From Bernardetiaceae bacterium (lineage in GTDB: Bacteria > Bacteroidota > Bacteroidia > Cytophagales > Thermoflexibacteraceae): a DNA stretch of 64,000 nucleotides. The stretch lies in NCBI GenBank assembly GCA_025057115.1, contig JANWWZ010000004.1, positions 124,001 through 188,000 of the forward strand, written 5' to 3'. Made by a program: the position numbers and the translations under genes. Below, piece after piece: positions 8,001-48,587 of the stretch. Each line of letters begins with the position of its first letter. Position 1 is the first letter of the stretch. The notes beneath the pieces are model-generated. The model was not told where the DNA came from. It did not search any database and saw nothing but the letters and a program-made list of their open reading frames with translations.

Positions 8001-9512
8001 AGTAATTGCCAGCAACAGCGCTCCCAAAATGGCAAAGCTCACCGTTTGCGCCATAGGAGTGAACATTTTTCCTTCAATGCCTTGTAAGGTCATAATGGGG
8101 AAGTACACTATCAAAATAATCGCTCCCCCAAAGACCACTGATTTTTTTACCTCTGAGGCTGCTTGAATGACTATTTCTTGACGCTCGCGATAAGTGAGCT
8201 TTGTGGGTTCCTGACTTTTGCCATTGAAGTTAATCCGTTGTTGAAAAGCCAGTGCCAAAAACAATACTACTGACTCTACGACAATGATGGCAGGATCGAC
8301 CAACAAGCCAAAGTCTATAGCTCCCAAACTCATGATATTTCCCACCACCCCGAAGTAGCGCATTAAAATAAAGGCAAAAAGCATTGCCAGAGGAATGACT
8401 GAAGCAGCCAGCAAACTTGCACGCCAGTTGCCCAAAAACAGGATAATGACAGCAACAACAATCAAAGCCCCTTCGATGAGGTTGGTGGCTACGGTCCTGA
8501 TGGCATTGTTTACAATTTTGGACCGATCGATAAACGGCTCAATAACCAACGAAGGAGGTAATTGCTTTTCTATTTCTGCCATTTTGGCTTTTACTCGCTG
8601 AATGACCTCATTGCCATTGCCTCCTTTTACCATCATAATAATGCCTCCCACTACCTCGCCTTGTCCGTTCATCGTCATGGCGCCGTAGCGGATAGCGCTG
8701 CCAAATTCTACCTCTGCCACGTCTTTGACCAACACGGGCACTCTGCCATTGTTTTTAACTACTGTGTTAGCAATATCTTCCAAACTGGTAGCTAACCCAA
8801 TGCCGCGAATGGTAAAGGCTTTGTTTTCTTTTTCGATGTAGGCACCGCCAGTGTTGCTGTTGCCTTCTGCTAGTGCTTTGTACACATCTTCAATAGTTAC
8901 CCCTAGGGAGCGCATTTGGTCTAGCTTCAGTTTGGCTTGGTATTCCTTTTTGTACCCTCCGAAGCCACTTACTTCTGCTACTCCTGGCACCCCAAGCAGT
9001 TGCTTGCGAATAAACCAATCTTGCAAGGTGCGCAATTCCATGGGCGAAAAAGATTTGTCTTTCAGGTCGCGAGGGCGGATAACGTACTGGTATACTTCTC
9101 CCAATCCCGTAGAAACGGGACCTAAGTAAGGTTCACCAGCGGCTTGAGGGATTTCATTTTTGATTTGTTGCAAACGTTCAAAAACTTGTTGGCGCGCCCA
9201 GTAAATATCCGTGTCATCCGTGAAAACCAGCTTGACCACCGACAAACCAAATTTTGAAATGGAACGGGTTTGCACCAAGCCAGGAATATTGGACATAGCC
9301 ATTTCGATAGGCGAGGTTACAAACATTTCCATTTCCAAAGACGCCAAGCTAGGGGTATAGGTAATGATATCTACCTGATTGTTAGTTACATCTGGTACGG
9401 CGTCGATGGGCAGATTTTTTAGCGAATATCCGCCAGCAATTGCCATAAGAAGCGTCAGGGCGCCAATGGTTAAAGGATTGCGCACACTGTAAGTAATGAT
9501 TTTGTCAATCAT
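5088..9512 (-). CDS. cusA: CusA/CzcA heavy-metal RND pump fused to a TolC-like outer-membrane factor
   Basis: A 1474-residue protein, about 430 longer than a normal CusA/CzcA. Residues 1-1045 are a complete HME-type RND transporter. PIDAVPDVTNNQ near residue 35 is typical, and the proton-relay acids D400, D406 and E413 in TM4 match the D/D/E of CzcA. After TM12 comes an acidic linker (EADEEIEHVHIN), a hydrophobic stretch near 1062-1078 ending in an AQA site that looks like an internal signal peptide, and then about 395 residues of TolC/CzcC-type outer-membrane factor (MEEAVSLALAKNPEIR). The fusion puts pump and channel in one reading frame, followed by the adaptor gene. Such fusions are known in Bacteroidota. 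Whether the protein is cleaved is not visible. Confidence 0.92.
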   Translation of the reverse strand: MIDKIITYSVRNPLTIGALTLLMAIAGGYSLKNLPIDAVPDVTNNQVDIITYTPSLASLEMEMFVTSPIEMAMSNIPGLVQTRSISKFGLSVVKLVFTDDTDIYWARQQVFERLQQIKNEIPQAAGEPYLGPVSTGLGEVYQYVIRPRDLKDKSFSPMELRTLQDWFIRKQLLGVPGVAEVSGFGGYKKEYQAKLKLDQMRSLGVTIEDVYKALAEGNSNTGGAYIEKENKAFTIRGIGLATSLEDIANTVVKNNGRVPVLVKDVAEVEFGSAIRYGAMTMNGQGEVVGGIIMMVKGGNGNEVIQRVKAKMAEIEKQLPPSLVIEPFIDRSKIVNNAIRTVATNLIEGALIVVAVIILFLGNWRASLLAASVIPLAMLFAFILMRYFGVVGNIMSLGAIDFGLLVDPAIIVVESVVLFLALAFQQRINFNGKSQEPTKLTYRERQEIVIQAASEVKKSVVFGGAIILIVYFPIMTLQGIEGKMFTPMAQTVSFAILGALLLAITYVPMMSALVLRPPKDPHDHGFSEKIVQAAYKLFKPLITLALKYKPATIVFAVGILAAGIGGFKIIGGEFVPKLQEGDLVVEMNLPVGTSMTESIKLATKVEKMLLEKFPDEVERVVSKIGTSEVPTDPQAMEAMETIVVLKPKEVWKKTKKQEELAEMVAEQMRRFPGLVLSIQQPIENRVNELMAGARTDIVVKLYGYDLDTLVKKSNEIIRLLRTIPGAVDVQESKIFGLPQINIKYDRRQMATYGITVEQMNRAIQIAFAGATAGLVYEKDKRFDLTLRLSDADRVRPENIKNLLIESKDGNPVPLKELADIQENIGPSEIGHENLGRRANIGFNVRGRDIESLVYEAIDKINKNVVLPPGYRLEFGGEFENLRRAKERLGIVVPIALSIIFGLLFASFGNVRDSLLIYAVVPLSAVGGVFSLLLRDMNFSISAGVGFIALFGIAVLNGILLVSHFNQLVRRGMSAEDAVIKGLQERFRPVLMTSAVAALGFLPMALSTSVGAEVQKPLATVVIGGLFTATILTLIVLPVLYSIVNKNRTKNISPEADEEIEHVHINTKVLTVTLFLVIFGGIAQAQAPLFRNAVTLSMEEAVSLALAKNPEIRQADYRIEQQQLLKPAAFNVSNLDLLFEAPTGEDLRPGLLQTFEFPTVYAFQAQAQQRRVALAKAEKDITINGLVFRTKVTFNELQFLLAKYLLLTRQDTIYDDILRINEVRYRVGQISNLERINGESQYKRIQYNLKQAEAELRGGRAMLAALLGRAGDTTLLPDKPLAKLPDLGILYASDTLAFATNPILNYNLRNVSLQQSLLRIERNKLLPGLQVGFLNQGTPGSEVMGGTPMASRFRLGLTLPFGLWSYKANIKAARKGVIISQLQAQITNLQLSAEYAKAVALYRQAKENLNYFETVGLREAQEIVRDARTSYRLGSITYYQYLQNLELAFQIEMNYLTTLRDYNYSIIYLKYLRGEQ

Positions 9513-9596
9513 TTTTTATGCTAGATCAGTTTTTCGAGAAACGCGCTAAACGATAATGCAGGTATAAAGGTTGAAGTAGCTCTTAAAGCGGCAACA

Positions 9597-35977: not shown

Positions 35978-35997
35978 CGGCAACGTTGAACTTAGTC

Positions 35998-36312
35998 ATG
36001 AGCACTGAAGTAATGACTTTGCGAGTAGATGCAACTAAACTGGAAAAGGTAGCATACATGCTTAAGGCGGTTGCTCATCCGGTACGCATTGCAATTATAG
36101 ATTTGTTAGACCAGTGTGGGCGGCTCAATGTGAGTGAATTGCAAACCAAGTTAAACATAGAGCAAGCGCTCCTTTCCCATCATCTAACTAATATGCGCGA
36201 TCGAGGCATCTTAACCGCTTCTAGGGAAGGGAAATGCATGTATTATGCCCTCGCTGATGCAGCCATTACCAATATTATTCACTGTATCAACAACTGCGCT
36301 AAAAAATTATGA
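35998..36312 (+). CDS. ArsR-family repressor, probable persulfide sensor (SqrR/BigR-like)
   Basis: A 104-residue winged-helix ArsR protein (AVAHPVRIAIIDLL, then the recognition helix IEQALLSHHLTNMRDRGIL). It lacks the ELCVCDL metal-site motif of ArsR/SmtB metal sensors. Instead it has Cys40 in the second helix and Cys96/Cys100 at the C-terminus. These positions correspond to the two cysteines of BigR (42/108) and SqrR (41/107) that form a polysulfide bridge. The next genes are a persulfide dioxygenase and an SQR, the known targets of those regulators. It probably represses its own promoter and that of sqr (inference). ATG 35998 is chosen over a TTG 12 bases upstream. Confidence 0.75.
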   Translation: MSTEVMTLRVDATKLEKVAYMLKAVAHPVRIAIIDLLDQCGRLNVSELQTKLNIEQALLSHHLTNMRDRGILTASREGKCMYYALADAAITNIIHCINNCAKKL

Positions 36313-36334
36313 AAAGATGATGTAAGTCATCTTT
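36313..36334 (+). terminator. Hairpin just after arsR
   Basis: AAAGATGA/TCATCTTT, 8-bp stem with loop TGTAAG, beginning directly after the arsR stop. The stem is AU-rich and the T run (ATTTTTTC) is 10 bases further on. It may attenuate read-through into the persulfide dioxygenase gene rather than stop it. Confidence 0.35.
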
Positions 36335-36391
36335 ATCAGCTTTGATTTTTTCAACATTTACGTGTGTTTATTTTTTAAACTTCTTACTGTG

Positions 36392-37783
36392 ATGAAAGTA
36401 GAGCAGTTGTACACAGGTTGCTTAGCGGAAGCAGCCTACTTCATTGAGTCTGCTGGAGAGGCAGCAGTTATCGACCCTATCCGGGAAATTGAACCTTACT
36501 TGAAACTGGCTCGGGAACGCGGGGTAAAAATCAAGTACATTTTTGAAACGCATTTCCACGCGGATTTTGTATCAGGTCATTTGGACTTGTCTCGCGCTAC
36601 GGGAGCCCCTATTGTGTTTGGTCCTACTGCAAAAGCGAATTTTGATTTCATTGAAGCCAAAGACGGACAAATTTTCGAAGTAGGTAATGTAGCCCTTAAA
36701 GTGCTTCATACTCCTGGTCATACGCCTGAATCCATGTGTTTGCTACTTTACGACGAAAATGGAAAAGAACATGCTATCTTCACTGGTGACACGCTCTTTG
36801 TAGGGGATGTAGGACGCCCTGACCTGCTAGATGGAGTTATTATCTCCAAAGAAGAGCAAGTAAGCAATCTCTACGACAGTCTTAACAAAAAGATCAAGAC
36901 ATTGCCTGATGATGTAATTGTTTACCCAGGTCATGGTCCAGGTTCCTTGTGCGGCAAGAGCATTGGCAAAGAGACCCAGTCCACCATTGGAAGGGAAAAA
37001 ATGTACAATTACGCTCTTCAGCCTATGAGTCGGGAAGAGTTCATGAAGCTAATTTTGGAAGACCAACCACCAGCTCCCCAGTATTTTGTCAAAAATGCCA
37101 TGATTAATCGCATGGGATACGAGCCCATCGATGAAGTATTAGAACGAAATGTACGTCCCCTTAGCGTAACAGCCCTTGAATTGGAAGCCGAAGCGGGTGC
37201 TCTAATTTTGGACACTCGGAATGCCAACGATTTTGCAGCAGGTCATATTCCCAATTCTATGAACATCGGGCTGGATGGTTCCTATGCAGTTTGGGTAGGT
37301 ACTTTAGTGAGCGATATTAAGCAGCGCATAGTGGTGGTAGCAGAAAAAGGACGTGAACGCGAAGCAATTTTGCGCCTGGCACGCGTAGGCTACGAAAACG
37401 TAGCAGGTTACTTAGAAGGCGGTTTTGATACTTGGAAAAATGCAGGCAAGCCCACTGCTACCATTAATTGCATTAGTGCCACTGAATTAGCTGAGATCTA
37501 CCAACCCGAAATGCCCATTTTAGACGTGCGCCGGGTAAACGAGTTTAGAAACGGGCACCTTCCCAATGCAATTAACATTCCCCTGCGCGACTTAGAGCAA
37601 AATCTCCATCAACTTAATCCCAATCAGCTCTATTACGTTCACTGTGCAGGTGGCTACCGCTCTATGATTGCTGCTTCTATCCTTGTGCGCAATGGCTACC
37701 ACAAGGTAGTAAATGTCAATGGAGGAATGGATGCTATCGCCAAGACCCAGTTGCCCGTAGTAAAAGAGGCAAAAGTTGCCTAA
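36392..37783 (+). CDS. Persulfide dioxygenase (ETHE1/Blh-like) with two rhodanese domains
   Basis: A 463-residue protein. The metallo-beta-lactamase domain (residues 1-240) has THFHADFVSGH at 53-63, HTPGHTPESM and TGDTLFVGDVGRPDLL, the iron-binding pattern of ETHE1-type enzymes that oxidise glutathione or other persulfide to sulfite. Two rhodanese domains follow. The first has VAEKGRERE where the catalytic cysteine loop should be, so it should be inactive. The second keeps the active loop HCAGGYRS. This architecture is typical of Blh-type proteins. A terminator follows the stop; no separate promoter was seen, so it is probably transcribed with arsR. Confidence 0.88.
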   Translation: MKVEQLYTGCLAEAAYFIESAGEAAVIDPIREIEPYLKLARERGVKIKYIFETHFHADFVSGHLDLSRATGAPIVFGPTAKANFDFIEAKDGQIFEVGNVALKVLHTPGHTPESMCLLLYDENGKEHAIFTGDTLFVGDVGRPDLLDGVIISKEEQVSNLYDSLNKKIKTLPDDVIVYPGHGPGSLCGKSIGKETQSTIGREKMYNYALQPMSREEFMKLILEDQPPAPQYFVKNAMINRMGYEPIDEVLERNVRPLSVTALELEAEAGALILDTRNANDFAAGHIPNSMNIGLDGSYAVWVGTLVSDIKQRIVVVAEKGREREAILRLARVGYENVAGYLEGGFDTWKNAGKPTATINCISATELAEIYQPEMPILDVRRVNEFRNGHLPNAINIPLRDLEQNLHQLNPNQLYYVHCAGGYRSMIAASILVRNGYHKVVNVNGGMDAIAKTQLPVVKEAKVA

Positions 37784-37814
37784 AAGTTGCCTAAAAAGTG
37801 TGAATTGAAACAGG

Positions 37815-37847
37815 GAGGCAGCAAAATAAAAGCTGCCTCAAATTTTT
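37815..37847 (+). terminator. Terminator between persulfide dioxygenase and sqr
   Basis: A perfect 8-bp stem GAGGCAGC (37815-37822) and GCTGCCTC (37832-37839), loop AAAATAAAA, then a T5 run. Confidence 0.75.
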
Positions 37848-37859
37848 CTTAATAAACTT

Positions 37860-37890
37860 TTGTACATATGAGTATATATTTTTATTTTAG
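37860..37890 (+). promoter_or_regulatory. sqr promoter with operator-like spacer
   Basis: TTG (37860-37862), 20 bases, TATTTTAG (37883-37890; one mismatch to TAnnTTTG). The spacer holds ACATATGAGTATATATT (37864-37880), which agrees at 13 of 17 positions with 35951-35967 in the arsR promoter and sits in the same place between the two elements. Confidence 0.55.
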
Positions 37891-37922
37891 GGGGTCTCAA
37901 TCACACCAGTAAATAATGTCAT

Positions 37923-39137
37923 ATGAAAACCAACTACAAATCGCACTATCAAGTGCTCATTGCAGGCGGCGGAAATGCAGGTATTTCGGTGGCCGCTCAA
38001 CTGTTGCGCAAGGATTCCAAGCTAGATCTGGCTATCATCGAGCCCTCTGACAAACACTACTATCAACCCGCGTGGACTTTGGTAGGCGGTGGCGACTACG
38101 ACATTAATGACACTGTTCGCAACGAAGCAGACTTTATCCCCAAAAAAGCAACGTGGATTAAAGATAAAGTTACAAAATTTGACCCCGATAATAACAGAGT
38201 AGTTATCGGCAATGGTGATGCTATTACGTATGACTGGCTGGTGGTATGCATTGGCATTCAGCTCAATTGGTCAGCTATCAAAGGACTAGAAGGCAACTTA
38301 GGTAAAAATGGCATTACTAGCAACTACACCTTCCAAACAGCTCCCTATACCTTTGAGTGCATCAAAAACTTTAAAGGTGGGAAAGCCATTTTTACTAACC
38401 CCAACACACCCATTAAGTGCGGTGGCGCCCCTCAAAAAATTATGTATCTAGCGGCAGACTATTTCCGCAAACACGGAATTTTGGACAAAGCAGATATCCA
38501 TTACTACTCGGGTGGAGCGGTAATCTTTGGCGTGAAAAAGTACGCTGAAACTCTTAACAAAGTCATCCAACGCTACGGCATTAAAACCCATTACAAGCAC
38601 AACCTCGTAGAAATTCGCGCAGACCGCAAAGAGGCTGTCTTTGAAACAGAACAAGACGGACAGAAAAAGTACGTAGTGCAAAGCTATGACTTTATCCATG
38701 TTACTCCACCGCAATCCGCTCCTGATGTTATTCGAAATAGTCCGCTTGCTGTGCCTGATTCTCCGGGAGGTTGGGTGGACGTAGATAAGCATACCTTGCG
38801 CCACAATCGCTACAAAAACGTCTTTGGCATCGGCGACAATACCAGCACTCCTAATGCCAAAACAGGAGCAGCCATCCGCAAGCAAGCTCCTATATTGGTA
38901 GAAAATCTCTACCGCAGCATTAATGGACAAGAAATTTCAGCTATGTATAATGGATATGGCTCTTGTCCACTAGTTACAGGATACGGCAAGCTAGTGCTGG
39001 CAGAGTTTGACTACAGCAACGAACCTATCGAAACCTTCCCATTTGACCAAGGCAAAGAACGCTGGACTATGTATCAACTCAAAAAGCGCATCTTGCCTTG
39101 GTTGTATTGGAATAAGATTTTAAGAGGAACAGCTTAA
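37923..39137 (+). CDS. sqr: Sulfide:quinone oxidoreductase (type II-like)
   Basis: A 404-residue FAD protein that oxidises sulfide and passes electrons to quinone, yielding sulfane sulfur. The FAD motif is QVLIAGGGNAGISVAAQLL. The active-site cysteines appear in NTPIKCGGAPQKIMYLA and YGSCPLVTGYGK, and the second flavin strand in KNVFGIGDNTSTPNAKTG. The mitochondrial-like KCGGAPQK motif points to the type II (SQOR) branch, which hands sulfur to an acceptor such as glutathione. The upstream persulfide dioxygenase would use that product. It has its own promoter and is followed without a gap by the DUF6132 frame. Confidence 0.9.
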   Translation: MKTNYKSHYQVLIAGGGNAGISVAAQLLRKDSKLDLAIIEPSDKHYYQPAWTLVGGGDYDINDTVRNEADFIPKKATWIKDKVTKFDPDNNRVVIGNGDAITYDWLVVCIGIQLNWSAIKGLEGNLGKNGITSNYTFQTAPYTFECIKNFKGGKAIFTNPNTPIKCGGAPQKIMYLAADYFRKHGILDKADIHYYSGGAVIFGVKKYAETLNKVIQRYGIKTHYKHNLVEIRADRKEAVFETEQDGQKKYVVQSYDFIHVTPPQSAPDVIRNSPLAVPDSPGGWVDVDKHTLRHNRYKNVFGIGDNTSTPNAKTGAAIRKQAPILVENLYRSINGQEISAMYNGYGSCPLVTGYGKLVLAEFDYSNEPIETFPFDQGKERWTMYQLKKRILPWLYWNKILRGTA

Positions 39138-39343: not shown

Positions 39344-39589
39344 AATATCTACTAAACTCCTCCAACTTCAATTCTCTAGACTTTCTCCTCCTTTATCCCT
39401 GAAAGACACACAGCGCAAATTGCATTGAAGCTATCTAAAAGTTAGCTCAGCGCACGTATACACAAAGCAAAGAGAGAGCAACTGCTATCTTTAGGAAAGT
39501 TGCGTGCCTGGCGTGTAGGTAACCTCTTCTTAAGTAGTTTGCATTTGGTATACTTGGAGTGCGAATTACTCGAAAGCCAAGCTATTATT

Positions 39590-40333
39590 ATGATGCTGCT
39601 AATAGCCCACTGGGACAAACAAATATCCACTTGTGAGCCAATAGACATCTCCTTGCCTCTGGTTCCCAACGGAAAAAATGTTAATTGTTACAATGCCGAA
39701 GAGCCCACTGCAGAAACTATTCGTTTAGGGAATTTTATAGGCAGTGTGGCAGAAGGAGGGAGTTGCAACTACCAGCGCTTGCATCTTACTCCGCATGGCA
39801 ACGGAACACATACCGAATGCTACGGGCATATTTCAGATGATGGAGCGACCATTCACCAATGTTTAAGAAAATTTTTGTTCATGGCTCGGCTAGTGAGCAT
39901 AGCTCCTCTTCCTCAATCCAATGGCGACTGTTGCATTATGCCAGAGCAACTAGCCCCAGTGATTGAGAAAAATCCTCCCGAGGCGCTTTTAGTTAGGACT
40001 TTGCCCAATCCAGAGGAAAAGAAAACGCGGCGCTATTCAGGTACTAACCCGCCTTATTTTCACCCTGAATGCGGCAAGCAACTAGCGGCAGCCAAAGTAG
40101 AGCATTTGCTTTGCGATTTGCCTTCAGTGGACAAAGAACAGGACGGCGGCAAGCTACTCATGCACCGCTATTTTTGGCAGTATCCTCATGCTACTCGTAG
40201 CCATTGTACGATTACCGAGCTCATCTACGTGCCTGACTGCATTCCCGATGGCGAATATTTACTCCAGCTGAATATCATGAGCCTTATGTTGGATGCCTCG
40301 CCCAGCAAGCCCGTGCTATATGCTTTAAAGTGA
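39590..40333 (+). CDS. Cyclase-family (kynurenine formamidase-like) metal hydrolase
   Basis: A protein of about 247 residues of the PF04199 cyclase family, which hydrolyses cyclic or N-formyl amides and related bonds. The motif is HGNGTHTECYGHISDDG, in which the second metal-site acid is Glu rather than the Asp of HxGTHxD in KynB. ATG 39590 (or 39593) is chosen; an open extension of 30 codons upstream has no family similarity. It is convergent with the eight-gene operon ending at 40375, 41 bases away, and may act in the same pathway, though the shared direction of regulation is not shown. Confidence 0.75.
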   Translation: MMLLIAHWDKQISTCEPIDISLPLVPNGKNVNCYNAEEPTAETIRLGNFIGSVAEGGSCNYQRLHLTPHGNGTHTECYGHISDDGATIHQCLRKFLFMARLVSIAPLPQSNGDCCIMPEQLAPVIEKNPPEALLVRTLPNPEEKKTRRYSGTNPPYFHPECGKQLAAAKVEHLLCDLPSVDKEQDGGKLLMHRYFWQYPHATRSHCTITELIYVPDCIPDGEYLLQLNIMSLMLDASPSKPVLYALK

Positions 40334-40374: not shown

Positions 40375-42477
40375 CTAATTTCTCGCATCGTTGAAAGAAC
40401 ACTCAAGCAAGTCGATGACGATGTTGCGAAAGTCATCTACGTATGCGCTGGCATGGCTACCCACAATAGTAGTTGATTCCATTTCTTCAATCACTGCTGG
40501 ACCTTGCAAATTGTCTCCTGGCTGAAGCATATAGCGATTATAAACAGGGCACTGACGCGCTACAGGCTTGTTCTCCTCCATAAAATACACGGTGCGGTAA
40601 CCTTTCAAAGCCTGCATGCCCCTTGTCTCTACTGCCTGACGCGGCTGCAATGAAGGAGAGGGAACGCTCACTATCACGCGCCAGGTGACAACTTCTATGC
40701 CAATATCGTCTATGCTTCTACCATATCGCTGGCGATAGGCTTCTGTAAAGCGATGGTAGATTTCTGGTATGCTTTCCTCAGACAACCTACCGTTGGGCAT
40801 ACTAACGGCAATTTCATGTCCTTGCCCTGAGTAGCGCATGTCTGCAAGGCGCGCAATTTGTGCACAAGCTCGGTTGAAGCCTGCTTTTTCTACAAAGCGC
40901 ATGCCTTCTTCTTCCATTTCAGCCAGCAAGTCATTGAGTTGTTGCCAATTTATTTCTTTTATAGGACAAACCCAACTGCGGATTTGCTCACTGGCTACGG
41001 GGGAAACCAAAAAGCCGAGCGCGGAAACTACTCCCGCCCCTACGGGAATGATCAAACGCGGCACGTTGAGCAGGCGCGCCACTTGAAAGGCATGCACGGG
41101 TCCAGCACCTCCAAAAGCTAGCATGGCATAATGGCGCGGGTCGCGACCTTTTTCTAAAATATGCACCCGAGCGGCATTAGCCATATTTTCATTTACTATG
41201 CGGTGCACACCCATGGCCGCTTCTTCTACAGTAATTCCTAAAGGGCGGGCAAGATGCATTTCTATGGCTGTGCGAGCTGCTTGCAAGTCAAGTGGCATTT
41301 TGCCGCCTAAGAAATAAGTTGGGTTTAAATAGCCCAGTACTAAATCGCAATCGGTAACAGTTGGGCGAGTACCTCCGCGTCCGTAGCAAGCTGGTCCAGG
41401 CTCAGAAGCGGCACTTTCTGGACCTACTTTGAGCAATCCCAAAGCATCTATGTAAGCAATGCTGCCACCACCTGCCCCAATTTCAATTAAATCTATTACG
41501 GGAATTCGCACTGGCAAGCCGCTGCCTTTTTTGAAGCGCCTTACTCGCGCTGCTTCAAACTGGTTTGTGATCTCTGGCTGGTAATGGTTGATGAGGCATG
41601 TTTTGGCTGTAGTGCCGCCCATGTCAAAGGCTATTAGATTGGGTTGATTCATCAATTTGCCGTAAAAAACCCCTGCCATAGCTCCACCTGCTGGACCAGA
41701 CTCTAACAACTGAATGGGATTTTGACGCGCTCCCTCAACGGTGGTCAGCTTGCCGCTGGAAACCATGATGTGTACCGTGCCCCTAAAGCCCATCTGCCGC
41801 AATCGATTTTCTAAGTTAGCTAAGTACTGGTCTGTAATGGGCTGTACGTAGGCATTCATTGCTGTGGCAGAAGTGCGTTCATACTCGCGAATCTCAGGCA
41901 TTATTTGGCAAGAGAGGCTTACATAAATGTTGGAATGGTGTTTTTTAATATACTCGCCTACTGCTTTTTCATGCACGGGATTGACAAAGGAATGCAGAAA
42001 ACAAACGGCAATAGACTGCACGCCAGCCTTTACTAACTCATCCACCACTTGGGCTATTTCTGCTTCCTTGATAGGGGTAATCACTTCGCCTTTGTAGTTG
42101 ATGCGCTCTGTGATGCCTTTACGCAAAGATCGAGGCACTAAAGGTTCTGGCATGGCAATGTGGAGGTCGTAAATATCGTAGCGCAATTCGCGCCCAATTT
42201 CTAGGACATCTTCAAAGCCTTTGGTGGTAATCAAGCCAGTAAGGGCACCGCGTCGCTCAATGACGGCATTTGTTACCAGGGTAGTGCCGTGTACGATAGT
42301 AGTCAGTTGAGAGGGACCTACTCCTACGCGCTCTAACAGTTCAGTCATTCCTTTGATGATGCCGTTGGAAGGATCGTCGTAGGTAGTCAAAGTTTTGCCG
42401 AAGTGAAGTTGGCCTGTTTGTTCATCCAGTAGAACAAGGTCAGTAAAAGTGCCACCGATATCTATGCCGAGTTTCAT
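40375..42477 (-). CDS. Hydantoinase/oxoprolinase-type hydrolase, HyuA-like
   Basis: A 700-residue ASKHA-fold protein. The first phosphate-binding motif MKLGIDIGGTFTDLVLL is at the N-terminus and the second, LIAFDMGGTTAKTC, near residue 280. It fits HyuA (N-methylhydantoinase A) and the beta chain of acetone carboxylase. Such enzymes use ATP to activate a carbonyl or cyclic amide. HyuA normally works with HyuB, but no HyuB gene is found in the window, so a solo or different partner is implied. It is the last gene of the minus-strand operon, 98 bases after the SDR gene. Confidence 0.85.
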   Translation of the reverse strand: MKLGIDIGGTFTDLVLLDEQTGQLHFGKTLTTYDDPSNGIIKGMTELLERVGVGPSQLTTIVHGTTLVTNAVIERRGALTGLITTKGFEDVLEIGRELRYDIYDLHIAMPEPLVPRSLRKGITERINYKGEVITPIKEAEIAQVVDELVKAGVQSIAVCFLHSFVNPVHEKAVGEYIKKHHSNIYVSLSCQIMPEIREYERTSATAMNAYVQPITDQYLANLENRLRQMGFRGTVHIMVSSGKLTTVEGARQNPIQLLESGPAGGAMAGVFYGKLMNQPNLIAFDMGGTTAKTCLINHYQPEITNQFEAARVRRFKKGSGLPVRIPVIDLIEIGAGGGSIAYIDALGLLKVGPESAASEPGPACYGRGGTRPTVTDCDLVLGYLNPTYFLGGKMPLDLQAARTAIEMHLARPLGITVEEAAMGVHRIVNENMANAARVHILEKGRDPRHYAMLAFGGAGPVHAFQVARLLNVPRLIIPVGAGVVSALGFLVSPVASEQIRSWVCPIKEINWQQLNDLLAEMEEEGMRFVEKAGFNRACAQIARLADMRYSGQGHEIAVSMPNGRLSEESIPEIYHRFTEAYRQRYGRSIDDIGIEVVTWRVIVSVPSPSLQPRQAVETRGMQALKGYRTVYFMEENKPVARQCPVYNRYMLQPGDNLQGPAVIEEMESTTIVGSHASAYVDDFRNIVIDLLECSFNDARN

Positions 42478-42575
42478 GGATGAAAAATTTCGAGTAATGA
42501 CAAAACCAATTATGAGCGACCTTTTTCCAGAGACGGCAAAGGTCGTAAGGTAGAAAATGTTTCCAAAGTAAAGAT

Positions 42576-43418
42576 TTAATGGTATTCTTCTCCGCCGCTG
42601 ACATTCATTGCCTCGCCTGTGATGTAGGCTGCCATGTCGGAAGCCAAGAACAAACAGGCTTTGGCGATGTCTTCCACCATGCCCGTGCGCCCGAGTGGAT
42701 TGCGGTCGCGGATGCCTTGCAGATAGGTATCGTAGTCCAAGCCAAATTTTTCGCTAAAAAACTGATTTTGCCAGTGCCCAAGCCCTGTAGTGATGTGATT
42801 AGGACAAACGGCATTGACGCGAATGCCATATTTCCCTAGTTCAACTGCATTTGAGCGAGTAAGACCTACTAGTCCATGCTTAGAAGCTGTGTAAGCAGCC
42901 GCGTAAGGAAACCCCGATTTAGCTGCCTGACTGGCAATGTTGATGATGCAACCACCTTTACCTTGCTCTATCATGCGGATAGCCGCTTGCTGGCTGCACA
43001 GGAAAGCGCCTTTGAGATTGACATCCAACACAGCATCCCAGCTAGATTCTTTGAATTCAGTAAAAGGCTCCATCAAATAGCCTACGCCAGCATTGTTGAT
43101 GAGCACGTCAATACTGCCGAAGGTTTCAACTGCTTTGTCAATTAAATTTTTACAATCAGCGGCGATGCGTACATCACAAGGCACGGCGATGGCTTTTGCC
43201 CCGCGAGCTATGCAATCTTGAACAATGGCATTCATCTCTTCAGTAGTGCCAATGTGTTCAGCACTAAACTGCTCACCTTTGGGTTGCCCTAAGTCAGAAA
43301 TGACTATGTTGGAACCCATTTCAGCAAAGGCATAGGCAATGGCTTCACCGATCCCTTTTCGCCTGCCTGAGCCTGTAATAACCACAGTTTTGCCTTTTAA
43401 ATCTTCAAAAGGTTTCAT
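42576..43418 (-). CDS. Short-chain dehydrogenase/reductase
   Basis: A 280-residue NAD(P)-dependent SDR. The cofactor motif is TGSGRRKGIGEA, with two extra residues compared with the usual TGxxxGIG. NNAG is present, and the catalytic residues are Ser in NIASQAAKSG and YTASK near residues 178-182. It ends in MNVSGGEEYH, the classical C-terminus. Its start overlaps the end of the SpoIIAA-like gene by 4 bases, so the two are translationally coupled. Within the operon it is the likely alcohol/ketone redox step. Confidence 0.88.
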   Translation of the reverse strand: MKPFEDLKGKTVVITGSGRRKGIGEAIAYAFAEMGSNIVISDLGQPKGEQFSAEHIGTTEEMNAIVQDCIARGAKAIAVPCDVRIAADCKNLIDKAVETFGSIDVLINNAGVGYLMEPFTEFKESSWDAVLDVNLKGAFLCSQQAAIRMIEQGKGGCIINIASQAAKSGFPYAAAYTASKHGLVGLTRSNAVELGKYGIRVNAVCPNHITTGLGHWQNQFFSEKFGLDYDTYLQGIRDRNPLGRTGMVEDIAKACLFLASDMAAYITGEAMNVSGGEEYH

Positions 43419-43855
43419 ACTCCTTTGCCATTTGGGATGGGAAAACTATTCAGGTCAGATAATAACCAAGCGCGCGCATCTTCCAAAGTAGTAAAATAGC
43501 GCACTTGGAGGTTGCCCGATTGAGCCAGCCGCTGGTTTTCTATCTTGACAGAAAACTCACTAAAAAGGTTTTTCGCTGGAATAATGGCAACTTTTCTACT
43601 ACAGGGCATTGCCTTATCGAATGAAGGTTGCCAGTGTTGGTAAAACCATTGGTGGTCATGGGGATGTAAGTTCATGTTTCGTTGGTCCAATAGCCAGCGG
43701 CGCACTTTGTGAGCAATGGCAAACTCTCCTGCTTTGCAGGTAGCTGCTTTAAATTCTTCCGATTTTGTGATGATGCCAAAATAAGACACTGCGATAATTT
43801 CACTTTGTGGTTCAAAGCATATCTGTAAAGTCGTTCCTTTAAAGATGATTTCCAT
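43415..43855 (-). CDS. Small SpoIIAA/STAS-like protein
   Basis: A 146-residue protein of alternating strands and helices (IAVSYFGIITKSEEFKAATC, VRRWLLDQRNMN, VAIIPAKNLFSEFSVKI, YFTTLEDARAWLLSD) that fits a SpoIIAA-like fold. Proteins of this type are common in Bacteroidota and have no known reaction. The assignment rests on pattern only. Its stop overlaps the SDR start by 4 bases. It could be a small binding or scaffold protein of the operon. Confidence 0.55.
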   Translation of the reverse strand: MEIIFKGTTLQICFEPQSEIIAVSYFGIITKSEEFKAATCKAGEFAIAHKVRRWLLDQRNMNLHPHDHQWFYQHWQPSFDKAMPCSRKVAIIPAKNLFSEFSVKIENQRLAQSGNLQVRYFTTLEDARAWLLSDLNSFPIPNGKGV

Positions 43856-43895
43856 GCAAAAAGTTCGTCCTCTGGGTTAGATACAGGTGTAAAAG

Positions 43896-44207
43896 CTAAA
43901 TTTCTTCCGTGATAATGAAAATGGGATTATCTGCAAATTGGCGAAATTTTGCTGGAATTTCTGCCATTTTGGGCTCGGCTTGGATATCTGCCAGGAGATT
44001 TTCCACCGAATCAAAATGAATCACTTCAAAATACTTGTAGGGCGGTGTGCCCTCTGCTCCGAAGAGTCCTGAAGCTTTGTACACTTTAAAGTCGCTAACA
44101 GACTTTAAGCCTTTTACTGTGGGAATGTCTAATTCCCGTGCAAACTGTTCGTAGTCAGCTTCTGATACGCCTTCTTTCAGGTTAAAGAGCACGATAAGGG
44201 TTTTCAT
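43896..44207 (-). CDS. REDY-like (HapK-type) small protein
   Basis: A 103-residue protein of the dimeric alpha-beta barrel type (MKTLIVLFNLKEGVSEADYE, then LDIPTVKGLKSVSDFKVYKASG). The pattern recalls REDY-like HapK from the prodigiosin-type clusters, which has no proven catalytic role. The same fold includes monooxygenase-like and EthD proteins. ATG 44207 is chosen over an upstream in-frame start 48 bases away, because the family begins there. It lies between the aldolase and the SpoIIAA-like gene. Confidence 0.65.
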   Translation of the reverse strand: MKTLIVLFNLKEGVSEADYEQFARELDIPTVKGLKSVSDFKVYKASGLFGAEGTPPYKYFEVIHFDSVENLLADIQAEPKMAEIPAKFRQFADNPIFIITEEI

Positions 44208-44251
44208 AGAGGTGTGATTTTTATGGATGAGAAGAATAAAAAATTCTTTGC

Positions 44252-45013
44252 TCACTTGCCTGCGGCGGCAAAGGCTTTGGCAGCAGCTCCTAGCATAGCG
44301 CCAGTGTAGTGCATGATTATTTTTGCGCCTTTGGAAATGAGAGCTTTGGCTTGCTCAGCATTACCAGCAGTAGTGCCTATAACGAGATGGTGAGCAAGGA
44401 CTATTTCTATGATGCGGTCAATGGTTTGTTGGACTGCAGGGTGGTTCGGTCCATCGTAATAGCCCATGCTCATGGCAAGGTCTCGCGGACCAATAATAAA
44501 GCCATCAATGCCTGCGACGTTGCACATTTGGGGCAAATTTTCGACGGCTTTGAGATCTTCTATTTGAGGCAATACAAGGATCTGCTGGTTGGCGAATCGT
44601 ATGTAATCGGCTTGGGACATGGGTCCTATTCCAAACTCCCAGGCGCGCACTGGACCTAGCCCGCGCTCTCCTTCTGGAGGGTATTTCACCGCCTTTACTA
44701 AGGCTTCTACTTGGGCTGCCGTGCTTACCCCAGGCATCATCACGCCTACAATGCCAGCATCTAAAAACTGCAAAATCAGTTTAGGGTCTATGCTTCTGAT
44801 GCGCGCCATAGGGGCAATACCCGCTGCTTGGCAAGCTCTAATAATTGGCAAGGCTTCTGCAGGAGTAATTGCCCCGTGCTCGGCATCTATGATGTAGAAA
44901 TCCAAACCAGCATAGGCGCAAATTTCTGCTACCATAGGGTCGGAAAAATTGGAAATGACTCCTATGGCGGCTTGCCCTTGTTGAATTTTGGACTTGACAG
45001 GATTAATTTTCAT
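44252..45013 (-). CDS. HpcH/HpaI-family class II aldolase
   Basis: A 253-residue TIM-barrel enzyme that cleaves or forms 4-hydroxy-2-oxo acids using pyruvate and a divalent metal. Characteristic stretches are IDAEHGAITPAEALPIIRA, PMARIRSIDP, GIVGVMMPGV, LPQIEDLKAVENL (metal-binding Glu) and GPRDLAMSMG. It resembles 2-keto-3-deoxy-rhamnonate and 2,4-dihydroxyheptanedioate aldolases, but the residues that set the aldehyde are not diagnostic. In the operon it follows the hydro-lyase subunits, which suggests hydration or dehydration followed by C-C cleavage. Confidence 0.85.
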   Translation of the reverse strand: MKINPVKSKIQQGQAAIGVISNFSDPMVAEICAYAGLDFYIIDAEHGAITPAEALPIIRACQAAGIAPMARIRSIDPKLILQFLDAGIVGVMMPGVSTAAQVEALVKAVKYPPEGERGLGPVRAWEFGIGPMSQADYIRFANQQILVLPQIEDLKAVENLPQMCNVAGIDGFIIGPRDLAMSMGYYDGPNHPAVQQTIDRIIEIVLAHHLVIGTTAGNAEQAKALISKGAKIIMHYTGAMLGAAAKAFAAAGK

Positions 45014-45040
45014 AAACCATGTGTTGGCATAAAATTAACC

Positions 45041-45583
45041 CTAACGCAACAAATGAGCTGTGCCGTCGGCGATTTTTCGCTTGATAAATTCAACCAATCC
45101 TCCCGCTTCTGCAATTTCTAGCACGAAGGGGGCAAGAGGAGCCGTCTCCTTTACCTGACCAGTGCGAAGGTTTTTTACCGTATTGGCTTGCATGTCGTAT
45201 TCGAGTTCATCGCCAGTTTGGCAAATGGAAACTAAATCTTTGACGGTAATAAAAGGCAAGCCGTAGTTAGTAGCATTTCGAAATTGCAAGCGCGAAAAAG
45301 AATCGGCAAAGACAGCTTTAATGCCCGCTCCCATCAGTCCTGTTACTACGTGTTCGATGCTCTTGCCTCCTCCTGCAAAGTTGTGACCTGCTACGATGAA
45401 CGTGTAACCCGCATTTTTGAAGGCATTGTCAGCCTCAAACTCGGGAGCAACTCCACTCATGATATAACGGCTGTTGAGTTGCTTATCTACGGGGTCTGTC
45501 CAATACTTTTGGACTACCATGTCATAAGCCATTACGTAGCCAGAAGCGACCCAGCATTTTCCGCGAATAATTTTTTCCCTCAT
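45041..45583 (-). CDS. Aconitase-superfamily hydro-lyase, small subunit (LeuD-like)
   Basis: A 180-residue swivel-domain subunit of the LeuD/homoaconitase type. The equivalent of the substrate loop GxGSSREH reads AGGGKSIEH near residues 70-78. The Ser and Arg that bind the substrate in isopropylmalate isomerase are therefore changed, so the substrate is probably not isopropylmalate. ATG 45583 is chosen over an upstream TTG. It lies 77 bases after the large subunit gene and 27 before the aldolase gene. Confidence 0.82.
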   Translation of the reverse strand: MREKIIRGKCWVASGYVMAYDMVVQKYWTDPVDKQLNSRYIMSGVAPEFEADNAFKNAGYTFIVAGHNFAGGGKSIEHVVTGLMGAGIKAVFADSFSRLQFRNATNYGLPFITVKDLVSICQTGDELEYDMQANTVKNLRTGQVKETAPLAPFVLEIAEAGGLVEFIKRKIADGTAHLLR

Positions 45584-45660
45584 AGGAAGATGCAACTTTG
45601 TCTGGTTTTTGTAAATATGTCAATTGAGGAGAATTGCTCAAGAGTTGAGTTACAGCTGGC

Positions 45661-46926
45661 TCACAACAAACGAGGGTCAGTAATGACGCCTGTAAGGGCT
45701 GAGGCGGCTACCACTGCTGGCGAAGTGAGGTAGATTTGAGCATTTTTGCTACCCATGCGCCCTTTCATATTGCGGTTACCAGCGCTTAGGATAATGTCGC
45801 CATCGCCTGCCACGCCTGTGTGAATGCCTGCACAAGAAGCGCAACTGGGCGTATCTACGGCTACTCCTGCTTCTATCAAGTCAGCAATGTAACCAGCTTT
45901 CACTGCTTCTAAATACACCTGCTGACTTGCTGGCACAAGGATAAAGTTTACTTCCGGGTGCACTTGCTTGCCGCGCAAGATTTGCGCTACTATGGCAATA
46001 TCTTCTACCCTGCCATTAGTGCAAGTGCCCACAAAGGCTTTGTTGAACTTTCTTCCTACTACCTTTTCTATAGGCACTACGTCATCGAGCTTATCAGGCA
46101 GGGCTACAGTTGGACCTAAATTGGTAATATCTATTTCGTAAATGGCTTCATACTGGGCATCGGGGTCGCTGGCAATCATTTCCCAGTTGTCTTTTTGAAC
46201 GGGTCGAAGGTATTCTACCGTTTTTTGGTCTGGAGCGACGATGCCATTTTTAGCTCCTAGATCTACGGTCATATTGCAAAGGGTCATGCGCCCAGCTATA
46301 TCTAACGCTTCGATGGCAGGACCAGCAAACTCAAGGGCTTTGTAAATTAAATGTCCGTTCCAGTGCATCATGCCCATGATATGTAGGCTGAGGTCTTTCG
46401 CCATGACATAGGGTTGCCACCGACCTGTAACGTAAAATTTCACCGATTCAGGTACTCGAAACCAACACTTGCCAATAGCCATTGCCACTGCCGCATCGGT
46501 TACCGACACAGCATTACCCACGGCTCCTACTGCTCCGTAGGTATTGGCGTGGCTATCGGTTCCAATGCTAATTTTGCCAGGCAATACGTGTCCATTTTCT
46601 ACCATCACTTGGTGGGCAATGCCTTGCCTGCCTAAATCGTAGAAGTACTTGATGTGGTGTTGCCTAACCAGTTGCCGCCATTGGTTGAGCATGGTAGCAA
46701 AAGCAGGGGTAGGCGGGGGCACCAGATGGTCAGAAACGCAAATTACGCGTTGGCGGTCGAACACCTCGGTTTTGCCTAATTCATGTAAGGTTTTAAAAGT
46801 GGACTGTCCCAGATAGTCCATTGTCATGACCGAGTACACATCAGCCCATACCAGCTCGCCAGGCTTGACTTTATCCCGACCGCTGTTGTAAGCCATGATC
46901 TTTTCGGTGATGGTCATTCCTGCCAT
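45661..46926 (-). CDS. Aconitase-superfamily hydro-lyase, large subunit (LeuC-like)
   Basis: A protein of about 421 residues of the archaeal-type LeuC/homoaconitase branch, containing a [4Fe-4S] cluster for stereospecific hydration or dehydration. The three cluster cysteines are in GTCTNGR (near residue 300) and CASCAG (near 360 and 363). GTDSHANTYGAVG and SDHLVPP are also typical. Possible substrates are those of isopropylmalate isomerase, homoaconitase, dimethylmaleate hydratase or methylaconitate-type enzymes. No leuA or leuB is near, which argues against leucine synthesis. Start 46926 is chosen; 46917 is possible. Confidence 0.85.
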   Translation of the reverse strand: MAGMTITEKIMAYNSGRDKVKPGELVWADVYSVMTMDYLGQSTFKTLHELGKTEVFDRQRVICVSDHLVPPPTPAFATMLNQWRQLVRQHHIKYFYDLGRQGIAHQVMVENGHVLPGKISIGTDSHANTYGAVGAVGNAVSVTDAAVAMAIGKCWFRVPESVKFYVTGRWQPYVMAKDLSLHIMGMMHWNGHLIYKALEFAGPAIEALDIAGRMTLCNMTVDLGAKNGIVAPDQKTVEYLRPVQKDNWEMIASDPDAQYEAIYEIDITNLGPTVALPDKLDDVVPIEKVVGRKFNKAFVGTCTNGRVEDIAIVAQILRGKQVHPEVNFILVPASQQVYLEAVKAGYIADLIEAGVAVDTPSCASCAGIHTGVAGDGDIILSAGNRNMKGRMGSKNAQIYLTSPAVVAASALTGVITDPRLL

Positions 46927-46972
46927 AGGCACCAGTTAAGTTTAGTGTTTTCATTTTCAGATGCATAGACTA

Positions 46973-47473
46973 TTAAACCGCCACAGGAGCTTGGCGTATT
47001 TCGCTTGGGAGTTTGTATTGCGCTATGGCGTCGTAATCAGTTTGTTCTTGGGTGGTTACTTGCCGTTCTTCGATCATGGTGAGCCCTTCAAATTGACCGT
47101 TGCGGCTCCATTGCCATACGCGCATGCGATGACCAGGCTCAAGCAGGTTAATGAGTTCATAAAGTTGGGTACCAGGTTCAGCTTTGTAGGTCCATTGCAG
47201 AACAATCGAACCATTGCTTTCCCATGCCTTGCCATAGATGCGGTCATTGTCGAAGGTCATCACGCCATTTTCATCAAAATAGCTCTGACCGAAGTTATGC
47301 CGTTCATAGCGTCCGTTATCCCAGAAGTACTCATTCATCTGTTCCCAGCAGTTGCCTTGTAGTCTTAGCGTCAAGCGGCTTTTGTGGTGGTCTATGATTT
47401 TGCCTTCAGGGCTGATGCGAGTATAAGTACCTTCCCATACCCCTGTGTGAAGCGGAAAGAGTTTGAGTTCCAT
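46973..47473 (-). CDS. DUF3598/lipocalin-like protein, first gene of the operon
   Basis: A 166-residue beta-barrel-type protein (LFPLHTGVWEGTYTRISPEG, then GNCWEQMNEYFWDNGRYE, QSYFDENGVMTFDNDRIYGK). This is the pattern of DUF3598-type lipocalin-like proteins, known mostly from cyanobacteria and often thought to bind small hydrophobic ligands. ATG 47473 is used rather than the upstream TTG at 47512, as it lies about 20 bases after the predicted transcription start. It heads the eight-gene operon, 46 bases before the LeuC-like gene. Confidence 0.65.
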   Translation of the reverse strand: MELKLFPLHTGVWEGTYTRISPEGKIIDHHKSRLTLRLQGNCWEQMNEYFWDNGRYERHNFGQSYFDENGVMTFDNDRIYGKAWESNGSIVLQWTYKAEPGTQLYELINLLEPGHRMRVWQWSRNGQFEGLTMIEERQVTTQEQTDYDAIAQYKLPSEIRQAPVAV

Positions 47474-47499
47474 GTTACTTTGCGGTTTTGTTGCACTTT

Positions 47500-47532
47500 C
47501 AAATGTACTCAATTAGTTAATTCAATTAACTA
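47500..47532 (-). promoter_or_regulatory. Promoter region with a perfect 19-bp palindrome
   Basis: The minus strand carries TACATTTG (complement of 47500-47507), a perfect TAnnTTTG. Just upstream lies TAGTTAATTCAATTAACTA (47514-47532), a perfect 9-bp dyad with a single central base. It covers the region where the polymerase would sit, so a bound dimeric regulator should block or control the eight-gene operon. The form resembles MarR-type operators (inference). No MarR gene is in the window. Confidence 0.65.
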
Positions 47533-47555: not shown

Positions 47556-48587
47556 TTAGCGGGCATACTGGCGATTATAAGCCTCCAGCAGTACCAGAAA
47601 GTAAGAAATGAGCAGCGGACCAATGACTAGCCCAAGAATACCGAAAAAATTGACGCCGAAAATAACCCCTAACACTGTAATGAGCGGATGGATATTTCCG
47701 ATTTGGCGCGCAATTAAAAACCTCAACAAATTGTCAATGTTTAGAACTAAAATAGCTCCATAGATGATCAATCCTATTCCGCCTACCGTATTTCCTTGAC
47801 CGATAGCTGTTAGTCCTGCAGGTACCCAGACCAAAGGCGTTCCCAGCACTGGAATGAAAGCCAACAAAGCGCTAATAACTCCCCAAAAGAGCCCGTCGTT
47901 AATGCCGAATATTTCAAATCCCAACCAAACTAAACTGCCTTGTACCAAAGCAATCATTCCCTGCCCCAGCACATTGGTTTTTACGTTGTTTTCCAGTTCC
48001 GCAAACATCTTCTCTACAGTCTCCTTTTCGAAAGGAAGGTAATAGTAGAGGCTTTTGATTACGTTGGATTGATTGACAAGTAGGTAATACAAAACAAAGT
48101 ACATGATAGTAATGCCCACGAATAAGTTTAAAGTGCCAGAGACCAGTGGGGTAAACAAACGCGTGGCAAACTCGCCAATCTTGCTGACTACTTTTTGCAA
48201 TAGTTCTGGATTGTGCAAATCTATCCCCGTAAACCTTTGAAACTGAACAATAGCTGCACTTTTTAGCAATTGGTTGATATAATTGACAAAAGTGGAGGTA
48301 TAAGTAGCGTAAAATATCGCTTTTCGGGCTATCATGATAGTGGTGGCTACCAAAGGCAAAATGATGATAAACAAAGAAACAACGATGATCAAAAAAGCGC
48401 TAGCTTGTGGTTTCCATTTGCACTTTTCGGTAAGAAAGGTATGCAAGCGGCGAAAAAGGACATATAAAATGATACTGCCTATAAAAGCAGGGAAGTAATC
48501 TGCTAAGCCATAAAAAATAGCTCCTCCCAGCATTAGCAGAAGAATGATATGTAATGCAAAACGCTGCTGCGGCGTGTATATTTGCAT
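47556..48587 (-). CDS. AI-2E-family permease (PerM/YdiK type)
   Basis: A 343-residue membrane protein with about eight predicted helices. Hydrophobic segments include HIILLLMLGGAIFYGLADYF at the start and IGLIIYGAILVLNIDNLL and HPLITVLGVIFGVNFFGILG in the second half, the most conserved region of the family (PF01594). A long soluble segment lies between helices 3 and 4. Members have been linked to AI-2 export (TqsA) and sodium/proton exchange, so the transported species is not decided. No LuxS gene is in the window. Confidence 0.85.
   Translation of the reverse strand: MQIYTPQQRFALHIILLLMLGGAIFYGLADYFPAFIGSIILYVLFRRLHTFLTEKCKWKPQASAFLIIVVSLFIIILPLVATTIMIARKAIFYATYTSTFVNYINQLLKSAAIVQFQRFTGIDLHNPELLQKVVSKIGEFATRLFTPLVSGTLNLFVGITIMYFVLYYLLVNQSNVIKSLYYYLPFEKETVEKMFAELENNVKTNVLGQGMIALVQGSLVWLGFEIFGINDGLFWGVISALLAFIPVLGTPLVWVPAGLTAIGQGNTVGGIGLIIYGAILVLNIDNLLRFLIARQIGNIHPLITVLGVIFGVNFFGILGLVIGPLLISYFLVLLEAYNRQYAR

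Follow-up and report, generated by a model that had tools for sequence, protein, structure and literature searches.

Which pathway could a bacterium serve with an operon that joins a LeuCD-like hydro-lyase, an HpaI-type aldolase, a short-chain dehydrogenase (SDR) and a HyuA-type subunit to several small accessory proteins? The question is raised by eight open reading frames (ORFs), all on the minus strand at 40375-47512, in a 64,000-nucleotide stretch of DNA from a Bernardetiaceae bacterium. This whole stretch, hereafter the window, comes from a genome of 3.0 Mb (G000:C44). An earlier note on this DNA had proposed that the eight genes form an operon with a role outside amino-acid metabolism. 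Our analysis supports a real operon with such a role: it is one half of a phylum-wide, apparently unnamed and most likely catabolic pathway that also includes TonB uptake and CpeT-like, DUF1838, HMG-CoA-lyase-like and CaiB proteins. The eight genes are all present and intact in the ORF listing of the window, adjacent ones share 4 bases or are separated by at most about 100 bases, and the families named in the note were confirmed by curated Pfam cut-offs, which the SpoIIAA-like protein barely passes.

The earlier note had suggested searching other genomes for the same families in the same order, and this order is widely kept. Clustering of all genes in the fetched loci gave a core order DUF3598-LeuC-LeuD-HpaI-HapK-SDR-HyuA, usually followed by HyuB. 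The seven core genes occur in this order and on one strand in 46 of the 62 loci, and HyuB is kept as well in 38 of the 62; it is linked to the core in 41. Several of the incomplete loci stop at a contig edge, and the operon of one genome (G002) is split across two contigs (L028 and L140). Because the same order recurs in 46 loci and down to Kapaibacteria, the grouping exceeds chance; overall, it spans the Bacteroidota from Kapaibacteria to Flavobacteriaceae. The small accessory proteins were rightly placed in the pathway as far as DUF3598 and HapK are concerned, since both are conserved members of the core. The SpoIIAA-like protein is not, as its gene was seen at this position in the genus alone (four genomes).

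The LeuC orthologs give the taxonomic range of the system. An alignment of LeuC against 84,980 species genomes identified 59 Bacteroidota loci at 73-93% identity, followed by a gap down to the next relatives at 43-44%. The orthologs at 73-93% were found only in Bacteroidota, in a scan that used two short peptide patterns and that distant relatives in other phyla may have escaped. The ortholog is present in each of the genus's four genomes (90-93% identity) and absent from the nine further genomes of the family that were searched. Of 395 Bacteroidota genomes in an even draw, six have it, namely the window's own genome, three from genus g90 and two from Kapaibacteria. The LeuC tree mostly tracks the orders, with Kapaibacteria sitting among Cytophagales with high support, a pattern that makes both inheritance and some transfer likely.

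The core has lineage-specific neighbours. In Flavobacteria, LeuC and LeuD are separated by a flavin amine-oxidase-like gene, and HyuA and HyuB by a gene for a fumarate-reductase-like flavoprotein. Three sister genomes encode between LeuC and LeuD a protein of 437-441 aa (L028:9126-10451, L029:8616-9929, L030:8828-10141), which belongs to no clear family, has a hydrophobic stretch near residue 90 and is absent from this place in the window. On the 3' side of HyuB, many copies (L034:16857-18844 and equivalents) carry, mostly together, a protein of about 400 aa with a C-terminal methyltransferase domain, a familyless protein of about 120 aa and a SnoaL-like protein.

The other half of the pathway is most easily seen in genus g90, where the core and a second operon run divergently. 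This encodes an MFS carrier, a TonB receptor, DUF1838, an HMG-CoA-lyase-like protein (HMGL), LeuC2, another MFS carrier, LeuD2, a CpeT-like protein, a CaiB CoA-transferase, a two-domain VOC protein, a small protein in which we recognised a CpeT-like motif by eye (f28) and an aldehyde dehydrogenase (ALDH). Adjacent to the flavobacterial clusters lie a gene of the CpeT family and genes for MFS carriers and 2-oxoacid dehydrogenase E1/E2, and an isochorismatase-type hydrolase with a weak relationship to amidohydrolases occurs in some copies. In the window's genome the partners are scattered: a CpeT-like gene lies beside a TonB-receptor-like gene (C22), DUF1838 is encoded on C1, and a third locus (G000:C66, L175:9964-12756) combines a Tat-type flavin oxidase with another DUF1838 and another SpoIIAA-like gene, which shares 30% identity with that of the window. 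We tie this unlinked locus to the operon because the second SpoIIAA-like gene adjoins the second DUF1838 and the flavin oxidase there.

The association also holds across genomes. Of the 395 genomes, the six that have the LeuC ortholog are the only ones in which DUF1838 scores above its cut-off; no such hit occurs in the other 389. Such agreement is expected by chance with a probability of about 2 in 10^13 if genomes are independent, and of about 1 in 800,000 if one counts three genera among 171. In a set of 40 genomes that partly overlaps the former, DUF1838 was found in 9/9 LeuC-positive genomes versus 0/31 of the others, and the CpeT family in 9/9 versus 5/31, these five having shorter open frames and higher scores. 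Since the CpeT and DUF1838 genes are unlinked to the operon in the window's genus, the association there is not mere shared synteny. The neighbourhoods of DUF1838 in Novosphingobium, Streptomyces and Calothrix gave no clue to the pathway. One DUF1838 homolog lies among transposase genes on a cyanobacterial plasmid (L171, Calothrix sp. NIES-4101, 9001-9564).

What chemistry do the core enzymes point to? LeuCD is a [4Fe-4S] hydro-lyase by family. Aligned to 4kp1, LeuC has the Fe-S cysteines C304, C364 and C367 and the motif NRNMKGR (the NRNxxGR carboxylate site) invariant in nine orthologs. LeuD differs from its relatives at the active site: 64 of 64 orthologs have GGGKSIEH, and in the alignment to the isopropylmalate/citramalate isomerase 3vba, GKSIEH stands opposite GSSREH. 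In aconitase, the first serine of this motif serves as the catalytic base, with support from the arginine; the residues of LeuD aligned with them are Lys and Ile. The paralogous LeuD2 of the linked operon carries GCGSSREQ. The nearest solved relatives of both subunits (4kp1 and 3vba) thus have the Fe-S cysteines and NRNxxGR in common with LeuC, but the operon enzyme departs from them in its altered small-subunit active site, in having no leuA or leuB beside it (neither was recognised in the operon or in the homologous neighbourhoods) and in coexisting with a separate LeuC-type protein (G000:C55). Given the motif of the 64 orthologs and this separate LeuC, the sequences indicate that the operon LeuCD is not the leucine enzyme and that a leucine role is unlikely, as the earlier note had argued for amino-acid roles in general. 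Leucine, lysine and citrate-cycle roles were all rejected on the LeuD motif and the presence of separate LeuC and aconitase-type genes. Another close known system is the dimethylmaleate hydratase DmdAB with dimethylmalate lyase of nicotinate fermentation, where a LeuCD-type hydro-lyase acts on an alkylated C4 dicarboxylate before C-C cleavage to pyruvate. That step, however, has no HyuAB or SDR partners as far as we know and uses a lyase from a family other than HpaI, and LeuD has GKSIEH here. A plasmid search for LeuD relatives returned only homologs below 40%.

The remaining enzymes fit the hydro-lyase, aldolase, dehydrogenase and ATP-dependent amide or lactam chemistry that had been proposed, and the family assignments support it. 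The best solved relatives of HyuA are N-methylhydantoinase (449 bits), 5-oxoprolinase (364) and acetophenone carboxylase (gamma subunit, 308). HyuB, seemingly missing from the operon, is encoded in the window's genome at an unlinked position (G000:C5:23031-24590), so that both subunit types are present; it shares 76% identity with the linked HyuB of a Kapaibacterium and scores 182 with N-methylhydantoinase and 167 with oxoprolinase, versus 104 with acetophenone carboxylase. By these scores, HyuA and HyuB are of the ATP-dependent cyclic-amide type, not ketone carboxylases. They share their domains with N-methylhydantoinase, 5-oxoprolinase and caprolactamase, which are their closest solved structures. 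Unlike those hydrolases, they fall far under the equivalog cut-off (555 versus 1000 bits for caprolactamase) and are set within a hydro-lyase/aldolase operon. HpaI-type aldolases cleave 4-hydroxy-2-oxo acids to pyruvate. The operon's aldolase scores 166 bits with TIGR02311 (HpaI), under the equivalog cut-off of 368.8, and its active-site blocks D.EH, ARI, QIE and GPRD, which hold the catalytic and metal residues, are conserved in 59 homologs. The SDR motif YTaSKHG is conserved over 57 homologs. For HapK, a sequence search found no relative in the Protein Data Bank (PDB).

The clues to the substrate come from the putative binding proteins. The model of DUF3598 predicted from 51 orthologs is an antiparallel barrel (pLDDT 93.6), which we assign to the calycin fold with high confidence in the model. 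Its structural matches are BFA1 (Z 16.5, rmsd 2.8, 136 aligned), the DUF3598 protein 2o62 of Nostoc (Z 14.7), nitrobindin (Z 13.9) and the phycobilin lyase CpeS 4tq2 (Z 12.9, rmsd 3.2, 137 aligned), and the list also holds fatty-acid-binding proteins and spirocyclases. The CpeT-like protein has one PDB match by sequence, the phycocyanobilin lyase CpcT (35 bits). DUF1838 gave weak barrel matches (best Z 8.1). By eye, the CpeT-like, DUF1838 and VOC proteins have signal peptides, and the flavin oxidase has a Tat-like motif. The wider pathway thus has a CpeT-family member in common with the phycobilin lyases CpeT/CpcT, and DUF3598 shares its calycin fold with them and CpeS. Unlike these lyases, the CpeT-like protein is longer, exported, present in non-photosynthetic bacteria and has no known phycobiliprotein target.

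We tentatively propose that the operon encodes the cytoplasmic part of a catabolic pathway of Bacteroidota for a bulky, hydrophobic lactam or imide N-heterocycle, plausibly a linear tetrapyrrole, either a phycobilin or a chlorophyll- or heme-derived bilin or maleimide fragment. Where the cluster is complete, the TonB receptor would import the compound, the exported CpeT-like, DUF1838, VOC and flavin oxidase proteins would bind and fragment it, and the MFS carriers would bring the fragments into the cytoplasm. There, HyuA and HyuB would open the lactam or imide with ATP, LeuCD with its changed active site would add or move water on the resulting unsaturated acid, the SDR would oxidise an alcohol to a 2-oxo group, and the aldolase would split the product into pyruvate and a carbonyl compound. 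DUF3598 and HapK may bind intermediates, and the second module (LeuCD, CaiB, HMGL and ALDH) may process another fragment. The catabolic direction, the order of the reactions and the compartments are inferred. A more doubtful proposition is a complete bacterial route of this kind. It would start from linear tetrapyrroles, either phycobilins or bilins derived from chlorophyll or heme, open the lactam or maleimide, hydrate the product in an aconitase-type reaction with altered catalytic residues and lead by aldol cleavage into central metabolism, with phycobilin-lyase-related calycins as pigment carriers.

As a substrate, the tetrapyrrole is a hypothesis with moderate support. Oxidation of chlorophyll and heme is known to yield maleimides and hematinic acid (PMC7318184), so such fragments do occur in nature. 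Isolates from red algae are among the hosts: strain 4-528 (L099; PMC12313589) and Maribacter algarum RZ26, whose source is Gelidium amansii (L104; PMC10942906). A number of points weigh against tetrapyrroles. Calycin barrels bind varied ligands (fatty acids, retinoids, carotenoids), and a common fold demonstrates no function for DUF3598. The match between the CpeT-like protein and CpcT is weak, HapK tells little, and a bilin route offers no obvious role for the methyltransferase, SnoaL and HMGL genes. Ulva has no phycobilins. Strain 4-528 was reportedly most abundant on this green alga (PMC12313589), and other hosts are sponge, sheep-gut and lake genomes of unknown diet. No published description of such a cluster or route was found for DUF1838, DUF3598 or bilin/maleimide catabolism with a hydantoinase, in a partial literature where one may exist. 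Finally, we recognised in the examined neighbourhoods no gene for a heme oxygenase, a bilin reductase or a phycobiliprotein, and it is because the clusters have no recognised bilin-specific enzyme that we hold the tetrapyrrole step as tentative.

The same catabolic logic could apply to another lactam, hydantoin or imide, such as an alkaloid, an oxindole, a cyclic peptide or a sunscreen compound of algae or cyanobacteria, with the calycins acting as general hydrophobic carriers. The relationship of HyuA and HyuB to hydantoinases and oxoprolinase, the diversity of calycin ligands suggested by the fold matches (fatty-acid-binding proteins, nitrobindin, spirocyclases) and the weakly amidohydrolase-related isochorismatase-type hydrolase of some copies all agree with this. 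Yet pigment-type ligands are favoured over small hydantoins by the occurrence of CpeT-type and calycin-type proteins in one pathway and by the CpcT-only PDB match, and we see this alternative as possible but rather unlikely.

Two other explanations are less probable still. The substrate could be a nitrogen-free isoprenoid or carotenoid pigment (e.g., ionone-type ketones). HyuAB would then carboxylate a ketone with ATP in the manner of acetophenone carboxylase, and the branched acids would be finished by HMG-CoA lyase and CaiB. Lipocalin-type carriers can bind carotenoids, HMGL and CaiB are in the linked operon, and HyuA does match acetophenone carboxylase gamma; this is nevertheless improbable because both HyuA and HyuB are nearer N-methylhydantoinase and oxoprolinase. 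The operon could also be biosynthetic, with HapK, the methyltransferase, the SDR and the calycins building a pyrrole-type secondary metabolite as in prodigiosin clusters, one of which gave the HapK family (PF11639) its name. The methyltransferase and SnoaL genes 3' of HyuB in some copies would suit such a role, but we recognised no synthase, carrier protein or peptide-type ligase in any copy examined, and the aldolase, CaiB, HMGL, ALDH, TonB and MFS proteins suit breakdown, which makes biosynthesis very improbable.

The coordinates of the operon genes are given in the table below. Comparison with orthologs suggests shorter starts for HapK (ATG 44207), DUF3598 (ATG 47473), LeuD (ATG 45583) and LeuC (ATG 46926). 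No terminator-like site was found on the minus strand inside the operon, a result that says little because the scan yields no more sites than shuffled sequence; promoter and terminator scans performed no better than shuffles.

Genes of the operon in the window, with the evidence for their assignment (full ORF given where the suggested start is shorter)
Feature	Position	Strand	Evidence
HyuA, ATP-dependent hydantoinase/oxoprolinase-type subunit	40375..42477	-	Pfam PF01968/PF05378/PF19278; in order in 51/62 loci
SDR dehydrogenase, catalytic S and YxxxK retained	42576..43418	-	PF13561; in order in 52/62 loci
SpoIIAA/STAS-like protein, genus-specific insertion	43415..43855	-	PF11964, 25.3 bits vs cut-off 25
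HapK/REDY-like small protein	43896..44207 (ORF 43896-44255)	-	PF11639, 31.4 bits vs cut-off 25; in order in 52/62 loci
HpaI-type class II aldolase	44252..45013	-	PF03328
LeuD-like small subunit, GKSIEH replacing GSSREH	45041..45583 (ORF 45041-45595)	-	PF00694
LeuC-like large subunit	45661..46926 (ORF 45661-46932)	-	NF001614, 509 bits
DUF3598, calycin-type beta barrel, probably ligand-binding	46973..47473 (ORF 46973-47512)	-	PF12204; predicted model

Around the operon, a cyclase-family hydrolase (PF04199) at 39500-40333 is convergent to it; relatives of this family hydrolyse cyclic amides, e.g., isatin. The earlier note had drawn this gene into its account, and we considered it and a permease (47556-48587) as extra parts, but set both aside because neither adjoins the operon in relatives. 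Further away, a plus-strand trio (35986-39137) is possibly a sulfide oxidation set: a small ORF looks ArsR-like and one of 473 aa metallo-beta-lactamase-like (both by eye), and the third gene is a relative of type III sulfide:quinone reductase (238 bits versus a cut-off of 525).

Little is known, at the level of genes, about what becomes of the nitrogen-rich pigments of algae and cyanobacteria once the cells have died, and we are aware of no established aerobic pathway from bilins to central metabolites. If the tetrapyrrole hypothesis is true, the cluster supplies genes and cultured organisms (Maribacter algarum and M. vaceletii) for such a pathway. Even with another substrate, the analysis defines a coherent unnamed pathway, to which DUF1838, DUF3598 and the long form of CpeT are tied by synteny and co-occurrence, and it reveals a small subunit of the aconitase family with Lys and Ile where the catalytic Ser and its Arg align.

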